Source: Pseudophaeobacter flagellatus (GTDB taxonomy: Bacteria; Pseudomonadota; Alphaproteobacteria; Rhodobacterales; Rhodobacteraceae). Taken from it: a stretch of 64,000 nt of DNA. The stretch is taken from contig NZ_JAJQRG010000008.1 in assembly GCF_021228235.1 (NCBI RefSeq), positions 62,001 to 126,000 on the forward strand. The letters run 5' to 3'. The notes under the pieces were generated by a model. The model had not been told where the DNA came from, did not search any database, and saw only the letters and a list, made by a program, of their open reading frames with translations. Positions 45,177-62,476 of the stretch are shown here, one piece after another. Position 1 is the first letter of the stretch. Every line of letters begins with the position of its first letter. The translations under genes and the position numbers were made by a program.

Positions 45177-46535
45177 TTAGGCTGTTGACCAGCGGGCCGG
45201 GGCGCTGCCGCAGGCCTGGGCCGGGCGATCCCAATGCATCTGGGTCCCACCGACCTGCAGGGCTGGTTTCAAGCGCCGCGCGGGCCCCCAGGTGCTGTTT
45301 TCGATCTCGCGCGCATAGTCGTCTGCCTCTGCCGCATGAAGCGCTGGACTGTCGAGGTGATGCGGCGTTTGAGCCAGCTGCTCTGCCATTCGCGCCAGGG
45401 ATAAACGCGCGCTGGCGGCGCGATTTTCCAGCACTGCAGATTTTAGCGCCCGCAGCACGGCCGCCGCCATCATGTAGCCGGTGGCGTGATCCAGCGCCTG
45501 GACGGGCAGTGGAGTTGGTCTGTCCGTTTCGGCCCACTGCGCTCCTGCCTTTGCGACCCCGGCACTCATCTGTACTAGGCTGTCAAAGCCGCGCCGCTGC
45601 GCCCAGGGGCCACTCCAGCCATAGGCATTGAGGGACACCTCGATGCAGTTTGGGGCCAGCGCTGTGCGGGTTGTCCCTGTATAGCCCAAGCTATCCAGCG
45701 CGCCGGGACGGTAGCCATGCACAAGAACATCGGCCTGTGCCAGTAGCTCTTCGAATCTGTGCCTATCCGTTTGGTCTCGCAGATCAAGGCAGGTCATTGT
45801 CTTGCCCAGAGAAATGTCGGGTATGACACCGGGTTCATCCCAGCCAGGAGGGTCTATCCGCAACACCTCGGCACCAAAACCCGCCAGGGTACGAGTGGCA
45901 ATTGGTCCGGCCAATACCCGTGTCAGATCCAACACCCGCAGCCCTGCCAGAGGGCGTGAGGCAGAGGCCTTGGGGCGCGGGCGCAGGGTGACGCGGCGTG
46001 GCGCGTCCCAGTGAACCAGAGGCTCCCGGGCAACACTGCGACCCTGCGGATGGGCCAACCACTGGGCCCGGCTTCGCATATAGGCAGCGACACCCTGCTG
46101 TTTGATTACTTCTTGCTCCAGGGTCTCGCCGTCCCAGGCCGCAACAGCCGCCGCGACCGCAGTGGGGTCTGCGGCACAGTCGAGCACTTTGAGGGCGGCG
46201 GCGCGGTGGTGTGGCAGGTTGGTGTGCAGGCGGATCCAGCCATTGCCACAGGGATAGTTCCCGGCAATGGGATCCCATAGGCTTGGCAGGTCCCAGCCCT
46301 GGGCGGCAAAACTATAGCCAAACCAGAGCGACGCAAGGCGCTGGTTCACCGTGACGGACTGCTGATCGTGGCTGAGCCCGCCAGCCTGCATCAACTCTGC
46401 CAGTTGCTGGCCTACCGCAGCAAAGCAGGCATTGGCGAGTTCGCTCACTGCGAAGGCGCTGGTGTAGCGTCCCGTTCCGGTGACGTGATAGCTGCCCGGT
46501 GCGGGGAGCAGGGGCGGGAGGTGCGATAGGCTCAC
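45177..46535 (-). CDS. CaiB/BaiF family CoA transferase with rearranged domain order
   Basis: 452 residues. The typical CaiB N-terminus (PLAGLRVLDLTRVLAGPIAT, with GFGAEVLRIDPPG) starts only at about residue 195. The first 190 residues resemble the C-terminal half of such enzymes (CGNGWIRLHTNLPHHRAAAL, AYMRSRAQWLAHPQG). The order therefore looks permuted. The catalytic aspartate is plausible in LPVQALDHATGYMMA. The GTG start at 46535 overlaps the upstream permease stop, making it the last gene of an ABC importer operon. It probably activates the imported acid as a CoA thioester; the substrate is unknown. Confidence 0.85.
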   Translation of the reverse strand: MSLSHLPPLLPAPGSYHVTGTGRYTSAFAVSELANACFAAVGQQLAELMQAGGLSHDQQSVTVNQRLASLWFGYSFAAQGWDLPSLWDPIAGNYPCGNGWIRLHTNLPHHRAAALKVLDCAADPTAVAAAVAAWDGETLEQEVIKQQGVAAYMRSRAQWLAHPQGRSVAREPLVHWDAPRRVTLRPRPKASASRPLAGLRVLDLTRVLAGPIATRTLAGFGAEVLRIDPPGWDEPGVIPDISLGKTMTCLDLRDQTDRHRFEELLAQADVLVHGYRPGALDSLGYTGTTRTALAPNCIEVSLNAYGWSGPWAQRRGFDSLVQMSAGVAKAGAQWAETDRPTPLPVQALDHATGYMMAAAVLRALKSAVLENRAASARLSLARMAEQLAQTPHHLDSPALHAAEADDYAREIENSTWGPARRLKPALQVGGTQMHWDRPAQACGSAPARWSTA

Positions 46536-47686
46536 TGCTGATACGGGTCGAGACTGTCGCGCAGCCCATCGCCAAAGAAGTTGAAGGCCAGCACCACGAT
46601 GATAATCGGCAGCATCGGGATTGCAGTCCAGGGGTAGATCTCGATTGAGGCGAGGTTCTGCGCGTCATTGAGCATCACCCCCCAGCTGACTGCGGGGGCG
46701 CGCAGCCCCAGCCCGAGGAAGGACAGCGCGGTTTCACCCAAGATCATCGCCGGGATCGACAGGGTCGCCGAAGCAATGAGATGCGACATGAAATTAGGGA
46801 TCAGGTGCTTGCGGATGACCCGCCCAGAAGAGGCCCCCATCATTTCGGCGGCCCGCACATATTCTTCTTCGCGAAGGGATAGGAACTTGGCCCGAACCGA
46901 GCGCGCCAGCCCCGGCCAATCCAGGATCCCTAGGATTATGGAGATGATGAAGAACACCGCCACTGGCGACCAGTTCGACGGCACCGCCGCCGAAAGCGCC
47001 AGCCAGAGAGGCAGCTCTGGCAGCGAGCGCAGGACTTCGATTACCCGGTTGATCCCCCAGTCGATCCTGCCGCCGAAATACCCCGCCACAGACCCAAAGA
47101 AGATCCCCAGAACAAAGGAGACCGAAATCCCGATCAGGCCAACCGTCAGCGACAGTTGCGCGCCATAGAGGATGCGGCTGAAGATGTCGCGGCCCAGGCG
47201 ATCAGAACCCCAGAGGAACACCGTTGCCCCCTTGGGGGCGCAGAACAGATGGGTGTCAGAGGCGATCAGCCCGGCAATGTGATAGGTCTTACCCTCGCAG
47301 AAAAAATCCAATTTGCGCGGAGTGTCGAGATCCGGTTTGAACACCCATTGAAATGTCTCCAGATCGGCTTTGGATGTCATCGGGTAGATGAAGGGGCCAA
47401 TGAATTCGCCCTCATGAAACAGATTGATGGATTGCGGTGGTGCGTAGAGATGCTCGCTTAGGCGCTGGTTCGGGACATAGGGCGCGATAAAGCCAATCAC
47501 CGGCAGCAGCAGATAGCAGATCAACAAGAAGGCACCGGAAATAAGGCCAAGCCGGTGGGTCTTGAACTTGCGCCAGATCAGCACCCAATTGGGGGCGTCC
47601 AGATCCTTGCGCTCCAACTCTTGCAGGGCGGCGTCGGGATCATAGGGGGCGTCGTCTACAAAGCGTCCATCAGGTAATTGGGTCAT
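46532..47686 (-). CDS. ABC transporter permease, oligopeptide/microcin C type (second permease)
   Basis: 384 residues of the DppC/OppC/YejE type. The N-terminus has a cytoplasmic stretch and one helix (LGLISGAFLLICYLLLPVIG), then a large periplasmic loop, as in YejE. Four or five helices follow, with the EAA loop AAEMMGASSGRVIRKHLIPN near residue 275. The large periplasmic loop suggests a bulky peptide-like ligand, but the substrate is unknown. It overlaps the first permease by ATGA and the CoA transferase by GTGA. Confidence 0.88.
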   Translation of the reverse strand: MTQLPDGRFVDDAPYDPDAALQELERKDLDAPNWVLIWRKFKTHRLGLISGAFLLICYLLLPVIGFIAPYVPNQRLSEHLYAPPQSINLFHEGEFIGPFIYPMTSKADLETFQWVFKPDLDTPRKLDFFCEGKTYHIAGLIASDTHLFCAPKGATVFLWGSDRLGRDIFSRILYGAQLSLTVGLIGISVSFVLGIFFGSVAGYFGGRIDWGINRVIEVLRSLPELPLWLALSAAVPSNWSPVAVFFIISIILGILDWPGLARSVRAKFLSLREEEYVRAAEMMGASSGRVIRKHLIPNFMSHLIASATLSIPAMILGETALSFLGLGLRAPAVSWGVMLNDAQNLASIEIYPWTAIPMLPIIIVVLAFNFFGDGLRDSLDPYQQ

Positions 47687-48711
47687 GCTTTGCGCCCCTC
47701 ATATCGAATGCGGGGATCCAAGAGTACCAGCAGGACATCGGAAATCATCGTTCCTATCAGGGTCAGCAGTGCCACAAACATCAGGACAAATCCGGACAGG
47801 AACATGTCCTGCGTCTTGAGTGCAGTCAGCAGGGTGGGGCCGATGGTTTGCAGCCCCAGAACAACCGAAACCAGCACCGAGCCGGAAATCATTGCCGGCA
47901 GCAGGTTGCCAATATCGGCAACAAAGGGATTGAAGGCCACCCGCAGCGGGTATTTTGCCAGCATCCTGGTTGGTGACATGCCCTTGGCCACGGCCGTTTC
48001 CACATAGGGTTTGCCCAGCTCGTCCAGCATATTGGCCCGCAGTCGCTGCATCATTGCCGATGCCCCAGAGGTGCCAATCACGAAGGTTGGCACAATCAGG
48101 TGGATGAGGATGGATTTGACCTTCTCCCAACTCATCGGCAGACCTTCAAAGGTGGGGTCCATAAGCCCGCCAATAGGCAGATCAAACCAACGGTGGCCAT
48201 AGTAAAACAGGATTAGCGCCAGCAGAAAGTTGGGTGTGGCCAAGCCGAGATAGCCAACAAAGGCCGAGGTGTAGTCCACCCAACTGCGCGCCCGTGCTGC
48301 CGCTAGCACGCCCAGGGGCAGGGCCACGACGTAGACAAAGACAACGGCAGCCAGATTGACCAATACGGTCAGCCAGAGACTGTCGCCGACAATTTCGGCC
48401 ACGGGACTGTCAAACTCAAAGGACCAGCCAAAATTGCCCTGCAGCAAGCCGGAAAACCCATGTGGCCCCGGCAAAAAGCCAACCCAGATGAAATATTGCT
48501 GCCAGAGAGGTTTATCCAAGGCATATTCGCCGCGCAGAAATTCGGCCTTGGCCACACCGGCTGATTGGCCGCTGGCGCGCAGTTCAGCAATCTGGTTGGA
48601 CAGATAGTCCCCCGGCGGCAGGTTGATGATGGCAAACACCAGAATGGAAACCACCCAGAGCGTCAGCAGCATGGTGCCGAAGCGATAGAGGGCGTAGCGC
48701 AGAATTGGCAT
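47683..48711 (-). CDS. ABC transporter permease, oligopeptide/microcin C type (first permease)
   Basis: 342 residues of the DppB/OppB/YejB type. The N-terminus MPILRYALYRFGTMLLTLWV has the characteristic helix, then a periplasmic loop and about five further helices. The EAA loop is YVETAVAKGMSPTRMLAKYP near residue 240, followed by LRVAFNPFVADIGNLLP. It shares a base with the binding-protein stop and overlaps the second permease. Confidence 0.88.
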   Translation of the reverse strand: MPILRYALYRFGTMLLTLWVVSILVFAIINLPPGDYLSNQIAELRASGQSAGVAKAEFLRGEYALDKPLWQQYFIWVGFLPGPHGFSGLLQGNFGWSFEFDSPVAEIVGDSLWLTVLVNLAAVVFVYVVALPLGVLAAARARSWVDYTSAFVGYLGLATPNFLLALILFYYGHRWFDLPIGGLMDPTFEGLPMSWEKVKSILIHLIVPTFVIGTSGASAMMQRLRANMLDELGKPYVETAVAKGMSPTRMLAKYPLRVAFNPFVADIGNLLPAMISGSVLVSVVLGLQTIGPTLLTALKTQDMFLSGFVLMFVALLTLIGTMISDVLLVLLDPRIRYEGRKA

Positions 48712-50660
48712 CAGCTCTCACCATCCTGAAAGAAGAACTCATCAGGGCGGTAGATGCCAAAATGGGCACCGGGTTCCCAGGCCCAGATGGCGCGTTTTGG
48801 CACATTTCGTAACCGGTTTGACACGACCACCGGCTGCGGTGCCGCCGAGATAATGCCGATGCCGTAGACCTGTTCGGCATGGATCTTGAGCATCTGGCGC
48901 CAGGCGGTTGCGCGGTCGGTGTCATCCTCGGCGGTTTCCCAGTCGTGCAACAGTGACAGCAAACGCTGGGGGGGGGCCATGTCAGGCGCTTCACCAGAGG
49001 TCCCGTTGGTTTGGTAATATTGACCCCATTTGGGCCAGGCGAGAAACACCTGATCTGTCGGCGCCAGATAGGCCGGAGAGGTATGGTTTTGTGGCAGGCC
49101 GTTGTCCCAGCCGTACCAGACCGAAGCCATGGTGGTGCCGGAAAACACCCGGTTGCGCAAAATATCCCGATCCAGCGGACGCATCACCAGTTTGACGCCT
49201 ACATCGTTCCAGTCATCCGTGATGATTTGCAGCGCATTTTCAACCTCTTGCCGCTCGCCGGCGGTTTCCACCACCAGTTCCATCCGGCGGCCATCGGGGA
49301 GGATACGGATGCCATAGCCGTCTTTTTCCGTAAGCCCGGCTTCATCCAGCAACTGGTTGGCCAGTTCCGGGTCGAATGAGGCCCAGGATTCACGCAGCAC
49401 CGGGTCAAAAAACGGGCTTTGTTCCAGCACGGTCATGGCGCCAGGCTTGGCCAGTTTGAAATAGAGCGCCCTGTTGATGGCCGCGCGGTTGATCGAAAGC
49501 GACAGCGCCCGGCGCACCCGCACATCGCGCAGCACCCTGCGCCAGACCGGGTCCTTGATATTCAGGTTGGGGTAGATCGCAATCTGCGAAGCCGCGCCGG
49601 TGCCCCAAAGATAGGTCTGGTAATTGCCGCCGTCTTTTTCGCCCTTGCGCAGGATCGGGATGTCCCGAAAGCCCAGCCCGCGCGCCTGCAGGTCGGCCTG
49701 GCCCGCGTTGGATTTTGCCGCCACCAGCCCACCTGCAACGATTTCCATTTCGACAGTGTCGATATAGGGCAGCTGCACGCCCTTACTGTCCACTCTATGG
49801 TAGTAGGGGTTACGCACAAACTGATGGCGGATCCGCTTGCCGGCGGTGGCATTGATCCAGGGCTGCAGGGTGGGCAGCTCGTGATTATCGTATTTGTACA
49901 TGTTGTCATATTTGTTGTGCAGCGCTGCCCAGCTTTTGACGCGGGCATAGTCGACTTCAGCGGCCAGGCTGTTGGCATCGGTGTAGTCGGCGTGAAACTG
50001 CTTCAGATAGGCCGAGGGGCGATAGATAAAGGGCGGGCGTGCCTGGGCCAGGTTTTGCAAGAACTGCGGATTGGGCTGGTCCCATTCATAGATCACCGTG
50101 GTCTCATCCGGGAAGCTCACCCGGGGTAGGCTTCCATCTACATAGAGAAAATCAGGTGGGCCAGCGGGGCTGAGCAGCGGATTATTGGCGATATCCTTCC
50201 ACCAATATTCAAAATCGGCAGAGGTAAAGGGATCGCCACTGGACCAGCGGTGACCCGGGCGCAGCCTCAGGGTGAAGCGCCTGTTGCCGACATTCTCAAA
50301 ACTATGCAGGATATCGGGTTGCAGCTGGTAGTCTTCGCTATAGCCCACCAGCCGGGCATAGCCGTAGACAACCATCTGGCGGATGTCCTTGGAGCGGGTG
50401 ACCATGGTGTTAAGCGTACCGCCCTGGTGACCAAAGCTGCGGCCCTTGGCGGCAAGATCCACAATCAGCGGGATATGGGGCAGCCGTTCAGACACTGGGG
50501 GCAGGTGGCCCGCGTCCACTTCAGTCTGCCAGAAACTGCTTTCTACAAAGCTGGGGCCAGCCGCAGCTGCGCCTGTCGTCAGCGTCAAGGCCGCAGCGGC
50601 GACAGAGCAGGCCAGAGACCTGGCAAATTTACGGGCTTGGGTGAGGCTTGGCTTAAACAT
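48711..50660 (-). CDS. ABC transporter substrate-binding protein, family 5 (YejA-like)
   Basis: 649 residues from ATG 50660; the longer open frame up to 50819 lies in the ATPase gene. Signal peptide SLACSVAAAALTLTTGAAAA with cleavage before GPSFVESSFW. The SBP family 5 outline is clear: QGGTLNTMVTRSKDIRQMVV, LRPGHRWSSGDPFTSADFEY and VRRALSLSINRAAINRALYF. It would bind the ligand in the periplasm. The long length and the YejB/YejE-like permeases are nearest to the YejABEF type, but no substrate is known. Its start overlaps the ATPase stop by eight bases. Confidence 0.88.
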   Translation of the reverse strand: MFKPSLTQARKFARSLACSVAAAALTLTTGAAAAGPSFVESSFWQTEVDAGHLPPVSERLPHIPLIVDLAAKGRSFGHQGGTLNTMVTRSKDIRQMVVYGYARLVGYSEDYQLQPDILHSFENVGNRRFTLRLRPGHRWSSGDPFTSADFEYWWKDIANNPLLSPAGPPDFLYVDGSLPRVSFPDETTVIYEWDQPNPQFLQNLAQARPPFIYRPSAYLKQFHADYTDANSLAAEVDYARVKSWAALHNKYDNMYKYDNHELPTLQPWINATAGKRIRHQFVRNPYYHRVDSKGVQLPYIDTVEMEIVAGGLVAAKSNAGQADLQARGLGFRDIPILRKGEKDGGNYQTYLWGTGAASQIAIYPNLNIKDPVWRRVLRDVRVRRALSLSINRAAINRALYFKLAKPGAMTVLEQSPFFDPVLRESWASFDPELANQLLDEAGLTEKDGYGIRILPDGRRMELVVETAGERQEVENALQIITDDWNDVGVKLVMRPLDRDILRNRVFSGTTMASVWYGWDNGLPQNHTSPAYLAPTDQVFLAWPKWGQYYQTNGTSGEAPDMAPPQRLLSLLHDWETAEDDTDRATAWRQMLKIHAEQVYGIGIISAAPQPVVVSNRLRNVPKRAIWAWEPGAHFGIYRPDEFFFQDGES

Positions 50661-52425
50661 GACAGCGTACCTTGTGTCCGGGCTCCAACGGCACCAGCGG
50701 CGGTGCTTCATAGCCTGCGAAGCGAAAACGTTCTGGCCATTTTTCCGGGCTGCCAGCCCCCTGCGCCACCAGATCAAGATCAATGGGGCGATGAATGTCA
50801 GGTTCGGGCTGAGCCGCAATTAGCGCCTTAGTGTAGGGGTGTTGCGGGTTGTAAAACAGAGTTTCAGGGCTGGCCTGTTCGACCACCAGCCCCCGGCGCA
50901 TGACCGCCACTTCGTCGGCGATCCGTGCCACCACGGCAAGATCATGACTGATAAACAGATATGAAAGCTGCTTCTGGTCGCGGATCTTTTCCAACAGGCG
51001 CAGGATCTGTTCCTGCACCGAAACATCCAGCGCTGAGGTGGGCTCGTCGCAGACCAGCAGCGAAGGATCCAGCATCAGGGCGCGGGCAATCGACAGCCGC
51101 TGGCGTTGGCCACCAGAAAAGGCATGCGGATAGCGCTGTAGCATATCCCGCTCAAGGCCAACCATCTGCAGCATCTCGGCGGCCTTGTCGCGCTGTTCTG
51201 CGCGGCTGCCAATGCGGTGGATTTCCAGCGGTTCAACCATGGTATCAAAAATCCGCATCCTTGGGCTGAGCGAGGAATAGGGATCCTGAAACACCATCTG
51301 TGCCTCGCGCTGAAAGGCGGTGCGCGCGGTGCGGTCCATCTGGTGAACCTCAATAGGATCTGCACCCTTGGTCGCCCGAAACAGCACCTGCCCGCCCTGA
51401 TCAGGCGGCTCGGCACCCAGGGCAATGCGCGCGGCGGTGGTCTTGCCCGATCCGCTCTCGCCGACAATGGCCAGGGTCTTGCCGCGCGGCAGATGCAGAT
51501 CAATGCCGCGGCAGGCATAGATAAGGCTGGGGGCCTTCCAGCCCTTGCCTGCCCGCATGCTATAGGTCTTTGAAACGTTGTTCATTTCCAGAATCAGGTC
51601 GGTGGCGGGCTCTATCGGTTTGGGCGTGGCATTGGCGGGAATCTGCGGCGCCGCCTTCATCAGCGCGCGGGTATAGGCATGGGCCGGGGCAGAGAGCAGC
51701 GGTTCGGCTGCGCCGGATTCCATCACCCGGCCCTTGTGCATCACCACTACCTGTTCCGCCATATTGGCAACCACGCCCAGGTCATGGGTGACCAGGATCA
51801 TTGCCATGCCGGTATCGCGTTGCAATTCCTTCATCAGGCCCAGAACCTGCGCCTGTGTGGTCACATCCAGCGCCGTCGTGGGTTCATCCGCGATCAGCAG
51901 TTTGGGCTTGGCCACCATGGCCATGGCGATCATCGCCCGCTGTCGCATCCCGCCGGACAGTTCAAACGGATAGGAACTATAGGTGCGTTCGGGATCGGGA
52001 AAGCCGACGCGGTCAAAACAGGCAAGCACCTCTTTCTTGGCGCTGGTCTCGCTTTTGCGGCCATGCAGCCAGAGCACCTCTACCACCTGGTTGCCAATGC
52101 GGTGCAGCGGCGACAAAGAGCGCATTGGTTCCTGAAAGATCATCGAAATCTGATTGCCGCGCAAATTCCGCATGGCGCGTTCGGGCAGGGTAACCAAATC
52201 AGTCGTGTTCGCACCATCGCGAAAGGTGATGCTGCCGCTGCGGATCTGGGCAACCTTGGGCAGAACACGCAGCACCGCGCGGCAGCTCACGGTTTTCCCG
52301 GAGCCGCTCTCGCCAACCAGTGCTAGGGTTTCACCCTCGGCGACATCAAAATTGACATCACGCACGACAGGGTCACCCTTGCCAAAGCCGATGGTAAGGT
52401 TTCTTACAGAAAGTAAAGGCACCAT
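50653..52425 (-). CDS. ABC transporter fused double ATP-binding protein (oligopeptide type)
   Basis: 590 residues with two complete ABC ATPase domains, as in YejF/GsiA. The first has Walker A GESGSGKTVSCR, signature LSGGMRQRAMIAMA and Walker B LLIADEPTTALD. The second has GESGSGKTTAARIAL, FSGGQRQRLSIARA and LVCDEPTSALD. The switch histidines are in VTHDLGVV and ISHDLAVV. It is the first gene of the five-gene operon ATPase, binding protein, two permeases, CoA transferase, all linked by overlaps. It energises import of an unknown oligopeptide-like or acidic solute. Confidence 0.93.
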   Translation of the reverse strand: MVPLLSVRNLTIGFGKGDPVVRDVNFDVAEGETLALVGESGSGKTVSCRAVLRVLPKVAQIRSGSITFRDGANTTDLVTLPERAMRNLRGNQISMIFQEPMRSLSPLHRIGNQVVEVLWLHGRKSETSAKKEVLACFDRVGFPDPERTYSSYPFELSGGMRQRAMIAMAMVAKPKLLIADEPTTALDVTTQAQVLGLMKELQRDTGMAMILVTHDLGVVANMAEQVVVMHKGRVMESGAAEPLLSAPAHAYTRALMKAAPQIPANATPKPIEPATDLILEMNNVSKTYSMRAGKGWKAPSLIYACRGIDLHLPRGKTLAIVGESGSGKTTAARIALGAEPPDQGGQVLFRATKGADPIEVHQMDRTARTAFQREAQMVFQDPYSSLSPRMRIFDTMVEPLEIHRIGSRAEQRDKAAEMLQMVGLERDMLQRYPHAFSGGQRQRLSIARALMLDPSLLVCDEPTSALDVSVQEQILRLLEKIRDQKQLSYLFISHDLAVVARIADEVAVMRRGLVVEQASPETLFYNPQHPYTKALIAAQPEPDIHRPIDLDLVAQGAGSPEKWPERFRFAGYEAPPLVPLEPGHKVRCHV

Positions 52426-59275: not shown

Positions 59276-59467
59276 TGCGATCCCCTGTGATGAATAACTT
59301 AAGTGAAACCATACGGGTTTTTGGCGGGCTGGCAAATACTGCATAGCACGGTAGGGGTTATGCGAAGGTGAACTAGGTCACAGCACCAACCGGCCATTGC
59401 CTGTAAGGGGTAAACCGCGCTAGGCATAAAAGGTCCCTTTTATTGCAGCCAGAGTTGGAGCTGTCCC

Positions 59468-62400
59468 ATAGAACGTTCCCTGTTCCGCTTTATCTGGAAA
59501 TACTCCAAACGCGACCAAGTGCTTTTGCTTGCGGTCACCACCTGTCTTTTTCCGCTGCTGTACCTGACGTTGGAACTACCAAAGCGGATCATCAATGACG
59601 CGATTGGTTCCCAAAGCGATCGGATTGATCTTTTGGGGTACGATATCGCGCAGCTGAATTATCTGTGGATTCTTTGCGGCGCTTTTCTGGTCTCGGTGCT
59701 GTTGCACGGGCTGTTGAAGATGCGGATCAACACCATGAAGGGGGTGCTGTCTGAACGCATGCTGCGTCGTTTCCGCTATCAGTTGATCGCCCGGGTGCTG
59801 CGCTTTCCTCAGCCCTATTTTGAACGGGTGAGCCAGGGGGAACTGGTCTCGATGATCACCTCTGAGAGCGAGCCGATGGGCGGGCTGATGGGCGATGCGG
59901 TCAGTCAGCCAGTATTGCAGGCCGGGCAGATGGCGACCATTCTGTTTTTCCTGTTCAGCCAGAGTCTCTGGTTTGGACTGGCGGCGGTGGCACTGATCCC
60001 CTTGCAGGGCTGGCTGATCCCGATGTTGCAGCGTCAGATCAACCTGTTGAACAAGACCCGGATCCATCAGGTGCGCGCGCTGGCCTCTGAAATCGGCGAA
60101 AGCGCTGCGGGGGCGGCGACCCTGCGCATCAATGGCGGTTGGCGCTATCGGATGGCTGCGATCACTGATCGGCTGGGGCATCTGTATGATATCCGCTTCC
60201 AGATCTACCAGAAAAAGTTTTTCATGAAGTTTCTCAATAACTTCATTACCAATCTGACGCCCTTTTTCTTTTATGCGATCGGCGGCTATCTGGTGCTGCA
60301 GGGGAAGGTCTCTCTTGGGGCTTTGGTGGCGGCCCTGGCGGCCTATAAGGATCTTGCGTCACCCTGGAAAGAACTGCTGACCTATTACAACCAGACCCAG
60401 GATATGGCCCTGCGTTGGGATGTGATACTGGAACGGTTTGCCCCGCCAGGCATGGTGCGCGAAGAGCTGATGATCGGCGAGCCGGAAGAGCAGATCCGAC
60501 TGCGTGGCGATATCGTGCTGGATGCGGTCAATGTGCGTGATGCTGATGGCAATCTGGTGCTGGAGGACGTGAGTGCCAGCCTGCCTGGGGGCAAGGTCAT
60601 CGGCATTGCTGCCCCGTCGGAAGAAGACCGGCGGGCGCTGGCCCAGTTGCTGACCCGTGAAGTGCTGCCCTCGGCGGGCAAGGTGACGGTTGCAGATGTG
60701 GATCTGCGCGCGATCCATCAGGCGGTTCTGGCGCTGCGCATTGGCCATGTGACCTCACGTCCGGTGCTGTTTCAGGGCTCTTTTGGCGATAATGTGATGA
60801 TGCCCATGCGCTCTCGTCCACAGGGAGAGCCGCGCGATGTGCAGCGCTATCGCGCCGCACAGCAGGCAGGGAATAGCGCCGATCCCTTTGATGCGGCCTG
60901 GCTCGATCCGGGGCTGGCGGGCTTTTCTTCGGTGCATGACCTGCGCGATTGGTGGGTGCAGTTGCTGGCGGGGATTGGCACCGATAGCGCCCTGTTTCGC
61001 CGCGGGATGGAGCAACATTTTGACCCTAAGCTGCACCCAAGGCTGGCGCAGTGCCTGATTGATCTGCGTCCCAAGGTGCGTGCGGCTCTCAAAGAGGCGG
61101 GGCTGACAAGCCAGGTGCATGCGCTGGCACGAGACAGGTATAATTCGGCGCTGCCAGTGGCGGAAAACCTGCTCTATGCCACTTTCCGAGAGCCGATCTC
61201 GGAAGAGCTCTTGCAGCGACATGTCGAATTTCTCGACCGGCTGCAGAAGCTGAAACTGGTGGATGATCTGGTGGCGCTGACCGAAGATGTCGTGGACATC
61301 CTGCGCCAGATCTTTGGCATGGATGGTACCGATCATCCGCTATTTCGCAAGCTCGGGCTGGATGTCCGGGCCTATGAACGGGCCTCGGCACTGGTGGATA
61401 CAACCCGTGCCAAGGGGGGGGGCGTGCTGGGCCATCAAGAGCTGGCACAGCTGATGATTGTTCCTTTCAGTATCTCGGCAGAACAGATCGGCCCGGCCTT
61501 CAGTGATGATATGAAGGCGCGCATTCTGGAGTTTCGCGAAAACCACGCGGATGATCTGATGGGCAGCCTGTCGGATGTTGTTGTCCAGTTGGACGAAGAG
61601 GCATTCGCACCTGGCCTGACGGTCCTGGAAAATGCGCTCTTTGGGAAAATCTCTGACAGTTCCGGCGCGCGCGGCGATGATGTGCGCCGTCTGGTTGCGC
61701 AGGTTCTGGTAGAGAATGGTGGCCGTGACATGGTGGTAGAGTTGATTTTTGACCTGCCTGTCGCAATTGGTGGTCAGGGGCTGCCCGCCAGCTATGCAGA
61801 GCCACTGGCCTTTGCGCGGGCGACAATCAAGCGGCCTGATATCCTGCTGCTGGATGGGGCCCTGAGCAGCTATGACATTGAGACCCGGATTGCGGTTCAC
61901 AAGAACCTGCGCCAGCTGTTGCCGGACACAACGCTGGTCTATCTTGAGGTCGGATTTGAGAATGTGGATGTCTTTGATGTTCATTTCGAATTGCGGCAGG
62001 GCAGGCTGGTCAGTGATGAGGCGCAGCAGGAAAGTGTCGAAGACAGCGCTGCCAGCCAGGATCTGGCGCGCAAGCTGCGTGCGCTGGAACAAACAGAGCT
62101 GTTTTCCGGGTTGAACCGTCGACAGCTGCGGCTGCTCGCCTTTGGCGCACGCTGGTATTCCGCCGAGGCAGGCGACACGGTATTCCACAAGGACGATGTG
62201 GCCAGCGATGGTGTCTATATGATCATCGATGGCAAGGCGGGGCTGTTTTTGCCACAAGAGGGCAAGGCCGATCATCTGGTGACCTCGGTTGGGCCGGGGC
62301 ATCTGGTGGGCGAACTGGGGCTGATCCGCAAGGAACCCCGCGCCCTGAGCATGGTGGCCGAGACAGAGCTGACCTGCCTGCGGATCGGCGAGGAAGAGTT

Positions 62401-62476
62401 CCTGGCGGTGGTGGAGAACGACGCCAATACAGCCTTCAAGCTGTTGCAGGTAGTGGCTGGCTACGTGAGCCACTAG
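59468..62476 (+). CDS. ABC-exporter-like membrane protein with degenerate ATPase domain and C-terminal cyclic-nucleotide-binding domain
   Basis: About 1000 residues. An exporter-type six-helix transmembrane domain covers the first 320 or so. The nucleotide-binding domain is recognisable (LEDVSASLPGGKVIGI, then RPVLFQGSFGDNV, then DILLLDGALSSYD) but has lost its motifs. Walker A (60602-60640) reads GIAAPSEEDRRAL, the signature (61781-61800) LPASYAE, the catalytic Glu is Gly, and the switch His region (61930-61953) is LVYLEVGF. A roughly 330-residue insertion separates the halves. A cNMP-binding domain follows from about 62095, with GELGLIRKEPRALSM. The start looks like ATA 59468, at seven bases from GGAG; GTG 59519 is the first ordinary start. 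Function unknown, possibly non-transporting. Confidence 0.85.
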   Translation: MERSLFRFIWKYSKRDQVLLLAVTTCLFPLLYLTLELPKRIINDAIGSQSDRIDLLGYDIAQLNYLWILCGAFLVSVLLHGLLKMRINTMKGVLSERMLRRFRYQLIARVLRFPQPYFERVSQGELVSMITSESEPMGGLMGDAVSQPVLQAGQMATILFFLFSQSLWFGLAAVALIPLQGWLIPMLQRQINLLNKTRIHQVRALASEIGESAAGAATLRINGGWRYRMAAITDRLGHLYDIRFQIYQKKFFMKFLNNFITNLTPFFFYAIGGYLVLQGKVSLGALVAALAAYKDLASPWKELLTYYNQTQDMALRWDVILERFAPPGMVREELMIGEPEEQIRLRGDIVLDAVNVRDADGNLVLEDVSASLPGGKVIGIAAPSEEDRRALAQLLTREVLPSAGKVTVADVDLRAIHQAVLALRIGHVTSRPVLFQGSFGDNVMMPMRSRPQGEPRDVQRYRAAQQAGNSADPFDAAWLDPGLAGFSSVHDLRDWWVQLLAGIGTDSALFRRGMEQHFDPKLHPRLAQCLIDLRPKVRAALKEAGLTSQVHALARDRYNSALPVAENLLYATFREPISEELLQRHVEFLDRLQKLKLVDDLVALTEDVVDILRQIFGMDGTDHPLFRKLGLDVRAYERASALVDTTRAKGGGVLGHQELAQLMIVPFSISAEQIGPAFSDDMKARILEFRENHADDLMGSLSDVVVQLDEEAFAPGLTVLENALFGKISDSSGARGDDVRRLVAQVLVENGGRDMVVELIFDLPVAIGGQGLPASYAEPLAFARATIKRPDILLLDGALSSYDIETRIAVHKNLRQLLPDTTLVYLEVGFENVDVFDVHFELRQGRLVSDEAQQESVEDSAASQDLARKLRALEQTELFSGLNRRQLRLLAFGARWYSAEAGDTVFHKDDVASDGVYMIIDGKAGLFLPQEGKADHLVTSVGPGHLVGELGLIRKEPRALSMVAETELTCLRIGEEEFLAVVENDANTAFKLLQVVAGYVSH

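Follow-up and report, generated by a model that had tools for sequence, protein, structure and literature searches.

Transporters of the ATP-binding cassette (ABC) type are defined by ATP-driven movement. The type IV ABC exporters such as MsbA, TmrAB, PCAT1 and P-glycoprotein share the fold of their transmembrane domain (TMD) and the frame of their nucleotide-binding domain (NBD) with a protein of 1002 residues that is encoded in a stretch of 64,000 nucleotides from Pseudophaeobacter flagellatus (contig NZ_JAJQRG010000008.1, positions 62,001 to 126,000), termed the window throughout. In contrast to these exporters, the window protein has no consensus ATP site, contains an insertion of about 275 residues in the NBD and ends in a cyclic-nucleotide-binding (CNB) domain, and its TMD is better conserved than its NBD. 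We consider it somewhat probable that the gene encodes a pseudo-ATPase ABC protein which is regulated by cyclic nucleotides, does not hydrolyse ATP and belongs to an envelope-related gene neighbourhood.

Catalytic residues have also been lost in the degenerate-site ABC proteins SUR, CFTR, TAP and TmrAB, some of which act as channel or regulator, and MsRv1273c/72c is reportedly a degenerate-site heterodimeric ABC exporter. To our knowledge, such proteins keep one working site per complex, whereas the family described here has no consensus site in either of its two copies, A and B. The secondary peptide transporters SbmA and BacA (SLiPT) resemble the window protein in their ABC-like TMD; SbmA has no NBD. 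The window protein, in contrast, keeps a pseudo-NBD and a CNB domain, and no SbmA family match was found in the Pfam scan at E≤1. The TMD of SbmA is driven by the proton gradient and works without ATP (excerpt of PMC13316013). HetC, a peptidase-containing ABC exporter, likewise carries a CNB-type domain, but in HetC an ATPase residue is required, a peptidase domain is present and the CNB domain is N-terminal and binds ppGpp in vitro (excerpt of PMC10986499). The window protein differs from HetC-like exporters in having lost the ATPase motifs and in having no C39 peptidase match in the Pfam scan at E≤1. In searches of an open-licence PubMed Central library we recognised no paper describing the family.

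Domain layout and integrity of the gene

The reading frame is unbroken from position 59468 to the stop codon at 62474-62476. The window protein passes the Pfam cut-offs for ABC_membrane (PF00664, E 1.1e-16, 61.8 bits with a cut-off of 28) and cNMP_binding (PF00027, 57.7 bits with a cut-off of 27.5), and stays below that for ABC_tran (PF00005, 17.1 bits with a cut-off of 25). Among the members of A2, PF00664 was found at E≤0.01 in 38/38 and PF00005 in 32/38. The MsbA family TIGR02203 was matched with an E of 1.2e-34, but with 119.8 bits against a cut-off of 602. The NBD-like region was modelled in the full-length structure model, in which the placement of the domains is unreliable because of a predicted local distance difference test (pLDDT) score of 76 and a predicted template modelling (pTM) score of 0.60; the 50 matches listed in a fold search of this model against the PDB were all ABC transporters, with low query TM scores of 0.20-0.34.

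Among the named rhodobacteral loci, the best 80 of 451 relatives (63-84% identity), the frame is whole in 78. One of the two exceptions is cut by a contig end (L071), the other lies in two frames in its assembly (L076, 7986-11006) and was excluded from the alignments. In eight chosen pairs the dN/dS ratios were 0.02-0.34 over five regions and 0.02-0.21 for the replaced Walker A loop, ratios that are rough because dS is above 1 (saturated) in many of the pairs. The whole frames and the low dN/dS agree with the first-pass annotation of the window, made from the sequence alone, which had described an intact frame of more than 1000 residues and no decaying pseudogene.

The ATPase motifs are degenerate throughout the family

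The window protein was aligned to four ordinary exporters from its own genome. In this alignment Walker A, the Q-loop Gln, the signature, the Walker B Glu and the switch His are replaced, so that all five losses named in the first-pass annotation stand. Its broader statement that all ATPase motifs are lost is too strong, since the Walker B Asp is still present (LLLDG); of the motifs scored, this is the only one that the protein keeps.

For the family as a whole, 190 unique members were collected with a profile of the insertion and a length of at least 700 amino acids (210 open reading frames, 207 of them long enough), a procedure that excludes relatives without the insertion by design; their motif columns rest on a single MAFFT alignment. 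Members with at least 45% identity to the window protein over residues 1-850 are referred to as the window's clade, which has 86 members and was compared with the 104 others. All six scored ATPase motifs are kept in 0/190 members, the best being L201 with five; the four control exporters, scored in the same way, reach six in three cases and five in one. The motif losses as well as the insertion are conserved across the homologues, the question that the first-pass annotation had raised, and homologues with intact motifs were not among the 190. On the same count we rejected an ordinary exporter with a local loss of motifs.

No member of the window's clade has a Walker A Lys followed by Ser/Thr, the Q-loop Gln, the signature or the switch His (0/86 for each), and a single one (1/86) has the Walker B Glu. 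The Asp residues fare better, that of Walker B being kept in 52/86 and that of the D-loop in 80/86. The position of the Walker A Lys is occupied by Arg in 86/86, which makes it unlikely that proteins of this clade bind nucleotide in the usual way. Among the 104 others, Walker A Lys followed by Ser/Thr is present in 3, the Q-loop Gln in 20, the signature in 10, the Walker B Asp in 10 and the D-loop Asp in 96, and the Gln of the signature is kept in 96. At the Ser/Thr place that directly follows the position of the Walker A Lys, 87/104 of these distant members have Glu or Asp, a specific and repeated substitution. L201 (1655-4351, minus strand) is nested among degenerate members, a placement that would correspond to late loss or to regain. 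The deep nodes of the tree are weak (one has a support of 0.275), and the tree does not separate ancestral from repeated motif loss.

A conserved cyclic-nucleotide-binding domain

Gly-Glu...Arg is the phosphate-binding cassette motif of CNB domain proteins. Of the 190 members, 93 have a fused CNB domain and another 93 have one in a separate gene just downstream, while in 4 none was found; the separate genes start -4 to 194 nucleotides from the frame end in 92 cases and at 625 nucleotides in one. The cassette residues are almost invariable in the domains found (Gly in 186/186, Glu in 180/186, the phosphate-binding Arg in 186/186). The cNMP-type block that had been noticed at the C-terminus of the window protein is confirmed by the PF00027 match above cut-off and by the retained phosphate-binding residues. 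We infer that cyclic AMP (cAMP) or cyclic GMP (cGMP) binds to this domain.

The transmembrane domain is the best conserved part

When the members are compared with the window protein, the TMD shows higher identity than the NBD in 189/189 cases; for the 104 distant members the mean identity is 47.0% in the TMD and 26.5% in the NBD. The reverse was found for an ordinary exporter of the same genome, whose NBD is better conserved in 17/17 orthologues (one exporter tested).

In addition, TMD-only relatives without a recognisable NBD were identified, and 15 of them were used for residue counts (L131, which is split, was left out). In a TMD tree they group with the family, away from ordinary exporters (support 0.94). 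An acidic residue occupies position 302 in 189/190 members and 12/15 TMD-only proteins, compared with 0/21 ordinary exporters (5 of them gapped there), and Glu302 is a candidate residue for proton-driven transport. Five further residues, K84, E133, R203, K250 and P299, are each present in 15/15 TMD-only relatives and in 188-190 of the 190 members, and are absent from the 21 ordinary exporters, save P299 in 3, a control that is narrow since 17 of these 21 sequences are orthologues of a single exporter. Thirteen TMD-only proteins end 5-30 residues past the match, and no CNB domain was found in their loci. The other two, L167 and L168, are located on roseobacter plasmids inside copper-resistance gene islands, have no NBD in Pfam and no annotated CNB neighbour at the locus; L168 is longer by about 107 residues. 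The occurrence of TMD-only relatives without CNB domain or NBD in other contexts, copper islands included, suggests that the TMD is functional by itself.

The insertion contains repeats probably related to the NBD

Between the same alignment columns 305 residues were counted in the window protein, compared with 32 in every one of the four exporters, which gives an insertion of about 275 residues; the first-pass annotation had recognised a long insertion in the NBD but had put it at about 330 residues. Two repeat units, c2 and c3, match each other. Unit c3 also matches ordinary NBDs in a set of 67 sequences (hhalign E 1e-10 to 3e-16), and c2 alone does so weakly (probability 45%). The stretch just past the Q-loop resembles the corresponding part of ordinary NBDs (E 5e-9), and its match to the repeats is short and weak. 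The insertion has thus probably arisen, at least partly, by duplication of the helical region of the NBD itself.

A model of the insertion only had a mean pLDDT of 82, and Foldseek found 0 matches for it in the PDB at E≤0.001 (best 0.33); a Pfam match to the insertion was not found either. On these grounds the insertion as a known domain was rejected, and the lack of Pfam and PDB matches speaks against an ATP site within it. The insertion profile was found in 31/398 genomes of a phylum sample; these 31 all belong to the same class, and 37/37 places were in frames of at least 863 residues. In the window's own taxonomic family (198 genomes), three insertion places are in frames shorter than 700 amino acids (twice in G903, once in G894), and these two genomes are incomplete. 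A free-standing insertion domain was seen neither in the 398 genomes of the phylum sample nor in these 198 genomes.

Distribution and the two copies A and B

A match at E≤1e-30 was obtained in 129/385 alphaproteobacterial genomes, including at least one genome (G324) with a TMD-only match. The genome of the window has a second full-length copy with 49% identity (L004, G000:C12:571774-574806), which is of the B type. In the window's taxonomic family the insertion is present in 39/198 genomes, with two matches in 28, three in one and one in 10; at least two of the 28 (G894, G903) have a fragment as their second match. Twenty of these 28 genomes were typed, and all 20 have one A and one B copy (the untyped ones are G000, G331, G751, G871, G876, G894, G903 and G929). 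The B copies are degenerate in 23/23 cases listed, many keeping the Walker B Asp. Since B is degenerate too, no consensus ATP site can come from it, and we rejected a heterodimer in which B would be the live half. The co-occurrence of A and B fits a heterodimer of two dead halves, co-occurrence not being proof of contact.

Proposed mechanism

In the reading that we prefer, a membrane protein resembling half of an ABC exporter would have abandoned ATP hydrolysis and come under the control of a cyclic nucleotide. cAMP or cGMP, in some lineages supplied by a nearby class III cyclase, would bind to the CNB domain, and the pseudo-NBD together with the insertion would relay the signal to the TMD in the manner of a clamp or lever. 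The TMD might then move or gate a substrate related to the envelope with no need for ATP, much as SbmA relies on the proton gradient; this last step is the weaker one. Roseobacters may use an A+B heterodimer as the working unit, which elsewhere may be a homodimer or a complex with a separately encoded CNB protein. The first-pass annotation had proposed a pseudo-ATPase turned into a cNMP-controlled channel, scaffold or regulator. The conserved motif losses, the CNB residues and the nearby cyclases speak for a pseudo-ATPase under cNMP control, which may act as channel, scaffold or transporter.

Nearby cyclases were found in several lineages. A class III cyclase is encoded 402-939 nucleotides upstream on the same strand in 11/80 rhodobacteral loci, 28-29 nucleotides upstream in two further genomes and 495 nucleotides downstream in a third; in S. 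meliloti, R. johnstonii and Phyllobacterium it belongs to the cluster, at a distance of 5-12 kb. Three of the cyclase examples were confirmed by Pfam. Among the matches listed, a cyclase is located within 15 kb in 8/24 genomes, with 1.9 expected (P 0.0008; two of the eight, in G131 and G185, come from a separately built profile), and within 1 kb in 3/24 genomes, with 0.29 expected (P 0.003), both statistics ignoring kinship and both distance limits having been chosen after inspection. At L190 (G233) a cyclase-like frame overlaps the gene region.

Several points weigh against a cyclic-nucleotide-regulated pseudo-ATPase, among them the construction of these statistics. No cyclase was present in the flank examined (up to 8 kb) in 69/80 rhodobacteral loci. 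None adjoins the gene in the window, and among 5 listed of the 7 cyclase matches in its genome none is on the contig of the gene. The ligand may also be a different one, as the example of HetC (excerpt of PMC10986499) raises the possibility of ppGpp binding by the CNB-type domain of an ABC exporter. Outside the window's clade, the Walker A Lys is retained in 60/104 members, the Walker B Glu in 57/104 and the switch His in 32/104, so that nucleotide binding may persist in part of them. Going by motif count, L201 looks no different from a working exporter, because one control exporter also scores five.

A bolder version of the same idea is tentative at best. Here a branch of the exporters would have swapped ATP for a second messenger, with TMD-only forms next to a large form whose dead, repeat-enlarged NBD has become a cyclic-nucleotide-gated module. 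In roseobacters an A+B heterodimer, kept at a low level by an AUA or AUC start (see below), would move or gate an envelope component, either with the proton gradient or by acting as a channel.

Alternative explanations

The alternative that survives best is a protein that does not transport at all. Anchored in the membrane, it would serve as a cNMP receptor or scaffold and control machinery encoded nearby, for instance the peptide importer or the glycosyltransferases. A regulator of this kind would fit the conserved CNB domain, the lost motor and the glycan-related and Yej-type neighbours described below, but we regard it as rather unlikely, given that the TMD is the best conserved part and that the TMD-only relatives occur elsewhere without CNB domain or NBD.

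A slow or unorthodox yet real ATP-driven exporter, with non-consensus nucleotide binding that is perhaps aided by the insertion or the partner copy, appears less plausible still. It could account for the partial motifs outside the window's clade, with L201 as the extreme case, for the resemblance of c3 to ordinary NBDs and for the D-loop and Walker B Asp residues that persist in the window's clade. It would, however, have to work in that clade with four motifs missing from every member and with a B copy that is degenerate too, while the NBD is the less constrained part and the insertion has no counterpart in Pfam or, at E≤0.001, in the PDB.

The first-pass annotation had also suggested half of a heteromeric transporter, which is borne out in so far as the paralogue B co-occurs, and fails in so far as B lacks a consensus ATP site. 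In a half-dead dimer each ATP site consists of Walker A and B of one half and the signature of the other. Heterodimeric exporters with one degenerate site exist, so the other half might be an ordinary ATP-competent exporter encoded elsewhere. We think this very improbable: the window half offers neither Walker A nor signature, the co-occurring paralogue B is degenerate in all 23 copies listed, and no ordinary half-exporter stood out nearby among the recurrent or annotated neighbours, the ones that were read, although a partner could be anywhere. A decaying pseudogene or local oddity, for which the lost catalytic motifs and the split frame of L076 could be cited, is refuted by the number of whole frames, the 190 unique members and the low dN/dS.

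The gene appears to start at AUA

Starts of the AUA and AUC kind are under the control of initiation factor 3 in E. coli. The start codon was compared in 81 sequences, the window and the 80 rhodobacteral loci. Codon 1 is ATA in 63, ATC in 16 and ATG in 2 of them; a G occupies position -11 in all 81 sequences and position -10 in 78 of them, GGAG itself occurs in 29/81, and codons 2-17 vary mostly at third positions. In the window the first ATG, GTG or TTG follows 17 codons after the conserved ATA. In 45/81 sequences codon 1 is ATA or ATC and none of these three codons occurs from the upstream stop to codon 17; one of them is found upstream of codon 1 in 31/81 and within codons 2-17 in 8/81. AUA or AUC is thus the apparent start in 79/81 close orthologues. 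The record of Ruegeria sp. TM1040 has its annotated start 17 codons late. Ten more distant members listed have ATG (8), GTG (1) or ATC (1) at the start place. A paper search on AUA starts returned nothing on this gene.

Gene neighbourhood

The coordinates of the features are collected in Table 1. The Yej-type importer encoded in the window is also kept in TM1040. In Agrobacterium, YejBEF-YepA is a muropeptide importer (excerpt of PMC9790009). Many distant members adjoin genes for glycosyltransferases, a histidine phosphatase, a deacetylase-like protein (a polysaccharide deacetylase is among these neighbours) and a methyltransferase, as well as a Yej-type importer. A recurrent cluster of this composition, with Methyltransf_17 as the methyltransferase, was observed at L141, L144, L137, L163, L165 and L166; at L144 it includes two proteins without Pfam match. 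No recurrent neighbour of that kind was seen in some of the fetched loci, for instance L132 and L133.

The msbA2 operon of S. meliloti (excerpts of PMC3687685 and PMC12239276) was considered as the S. meliloti member of the family. The two are probably different, because the order acyltransferase, two glycosyltransferases, msbA2 differs from the order round the S. meliloti member. In R. leguminosarum, pRL110056 is listed among root-colonisation genes (excerpt of PMC11103875); by position it may lie near RL_RS29995.

Table 1. Coordinates of the gene, its parts and further features (window positions unless a locus is named)
Feature	Coordinates	Strand	Basis
Whole gene, 1002 residues, ATA codon through stop	59468..62476	+	Open frame; orthologue conservation; start-codon comparison
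Inferred start codon ATA	59468..59470	+	Codon 1 across 81 sequences
GGAG, likely ribosome-binding site before ATA	59457..59460	+	Conserved G pair in 81 sequences
ABC-exporter-type TMD, residues 1-325, best conserved part	59468..60442	+	Pfam PF00664; model; identity by region
Glu302 codon	60371..60373	+	Acidic in family and TMD-only relatives; residue counts
Pseudo-NBD, first part, residues 345-445	60500..60802	+	Pfam; alignment with exporters; model
Walker A replaced (GIAAPSEEDRR)	60602..60634	+	Alignment with exporters and family
Q-loop replaced (VTSRPVLF)	60749..60772	+	Alignment with exporters and family
Insertion, about residues 446-715, conserved in family	60803..61612	+	Residue counts compared with exporters; profile searches
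Repeat unit c2, residues 527-625	61046..61342	+	hhalign c2-c3, E 5e-17, single comparison
Repeat unit c3, residues 683-800, extending into signature and Walker B region	61514..61867	+	hhalign with ordinary NBDs
Pseudo-NBD, second part, residues 716-850	61613..62017	+	Alignment with exporters; model
Signature replaced (LPASYAE)	61781..61801	+	Alignment with exporters and family
Walker B, Asp kept, Glu lost (LLLDGALS)	61844..61867	+	Alignment with exporters and family
Switch region without His (LVYLEVGF)	61934..61957	+	Alignment with exporters and family
Linker and CNB domain	62063..62473	+	PF00027, E 1.1e-15, Pfam match residues 899-985
Phosphate-binding cassette, Gly948-Glu949 to Arg958	62309..62341	+	Family alignment
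Yej/Opp-type peptide ABC importer: two permeases, substrate-binding protein, double ATPase	46532..52425	-	Context; also beside several distant members
TMD-only relatives without recognisable NBD	L118-L131; L167 9761-10999; L168 9773-11266		Pfam; residue comparison

Significance

In the plasmid records examined, members of the family carry the label 'ABC transporter ATP-binding protein' or 'ABC transporter transmembrane domain-containing protein', and the loss of the motifs bears on this annotation. If the protein is indeed a pseudo-ATPase regulated by cyclic nucleotides, the family would show an ABC machine rewired to another input, for which SbmA sets the precedent that ABC-type TMDs can run without ATP. 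cAMP or cGMP in alphaproteobacteria would then gain a direct membrane target besides transcription. With motifs partly degraded in many members and almost completely lost in one clade, the path from motor to regulator would be directly testable in this family.

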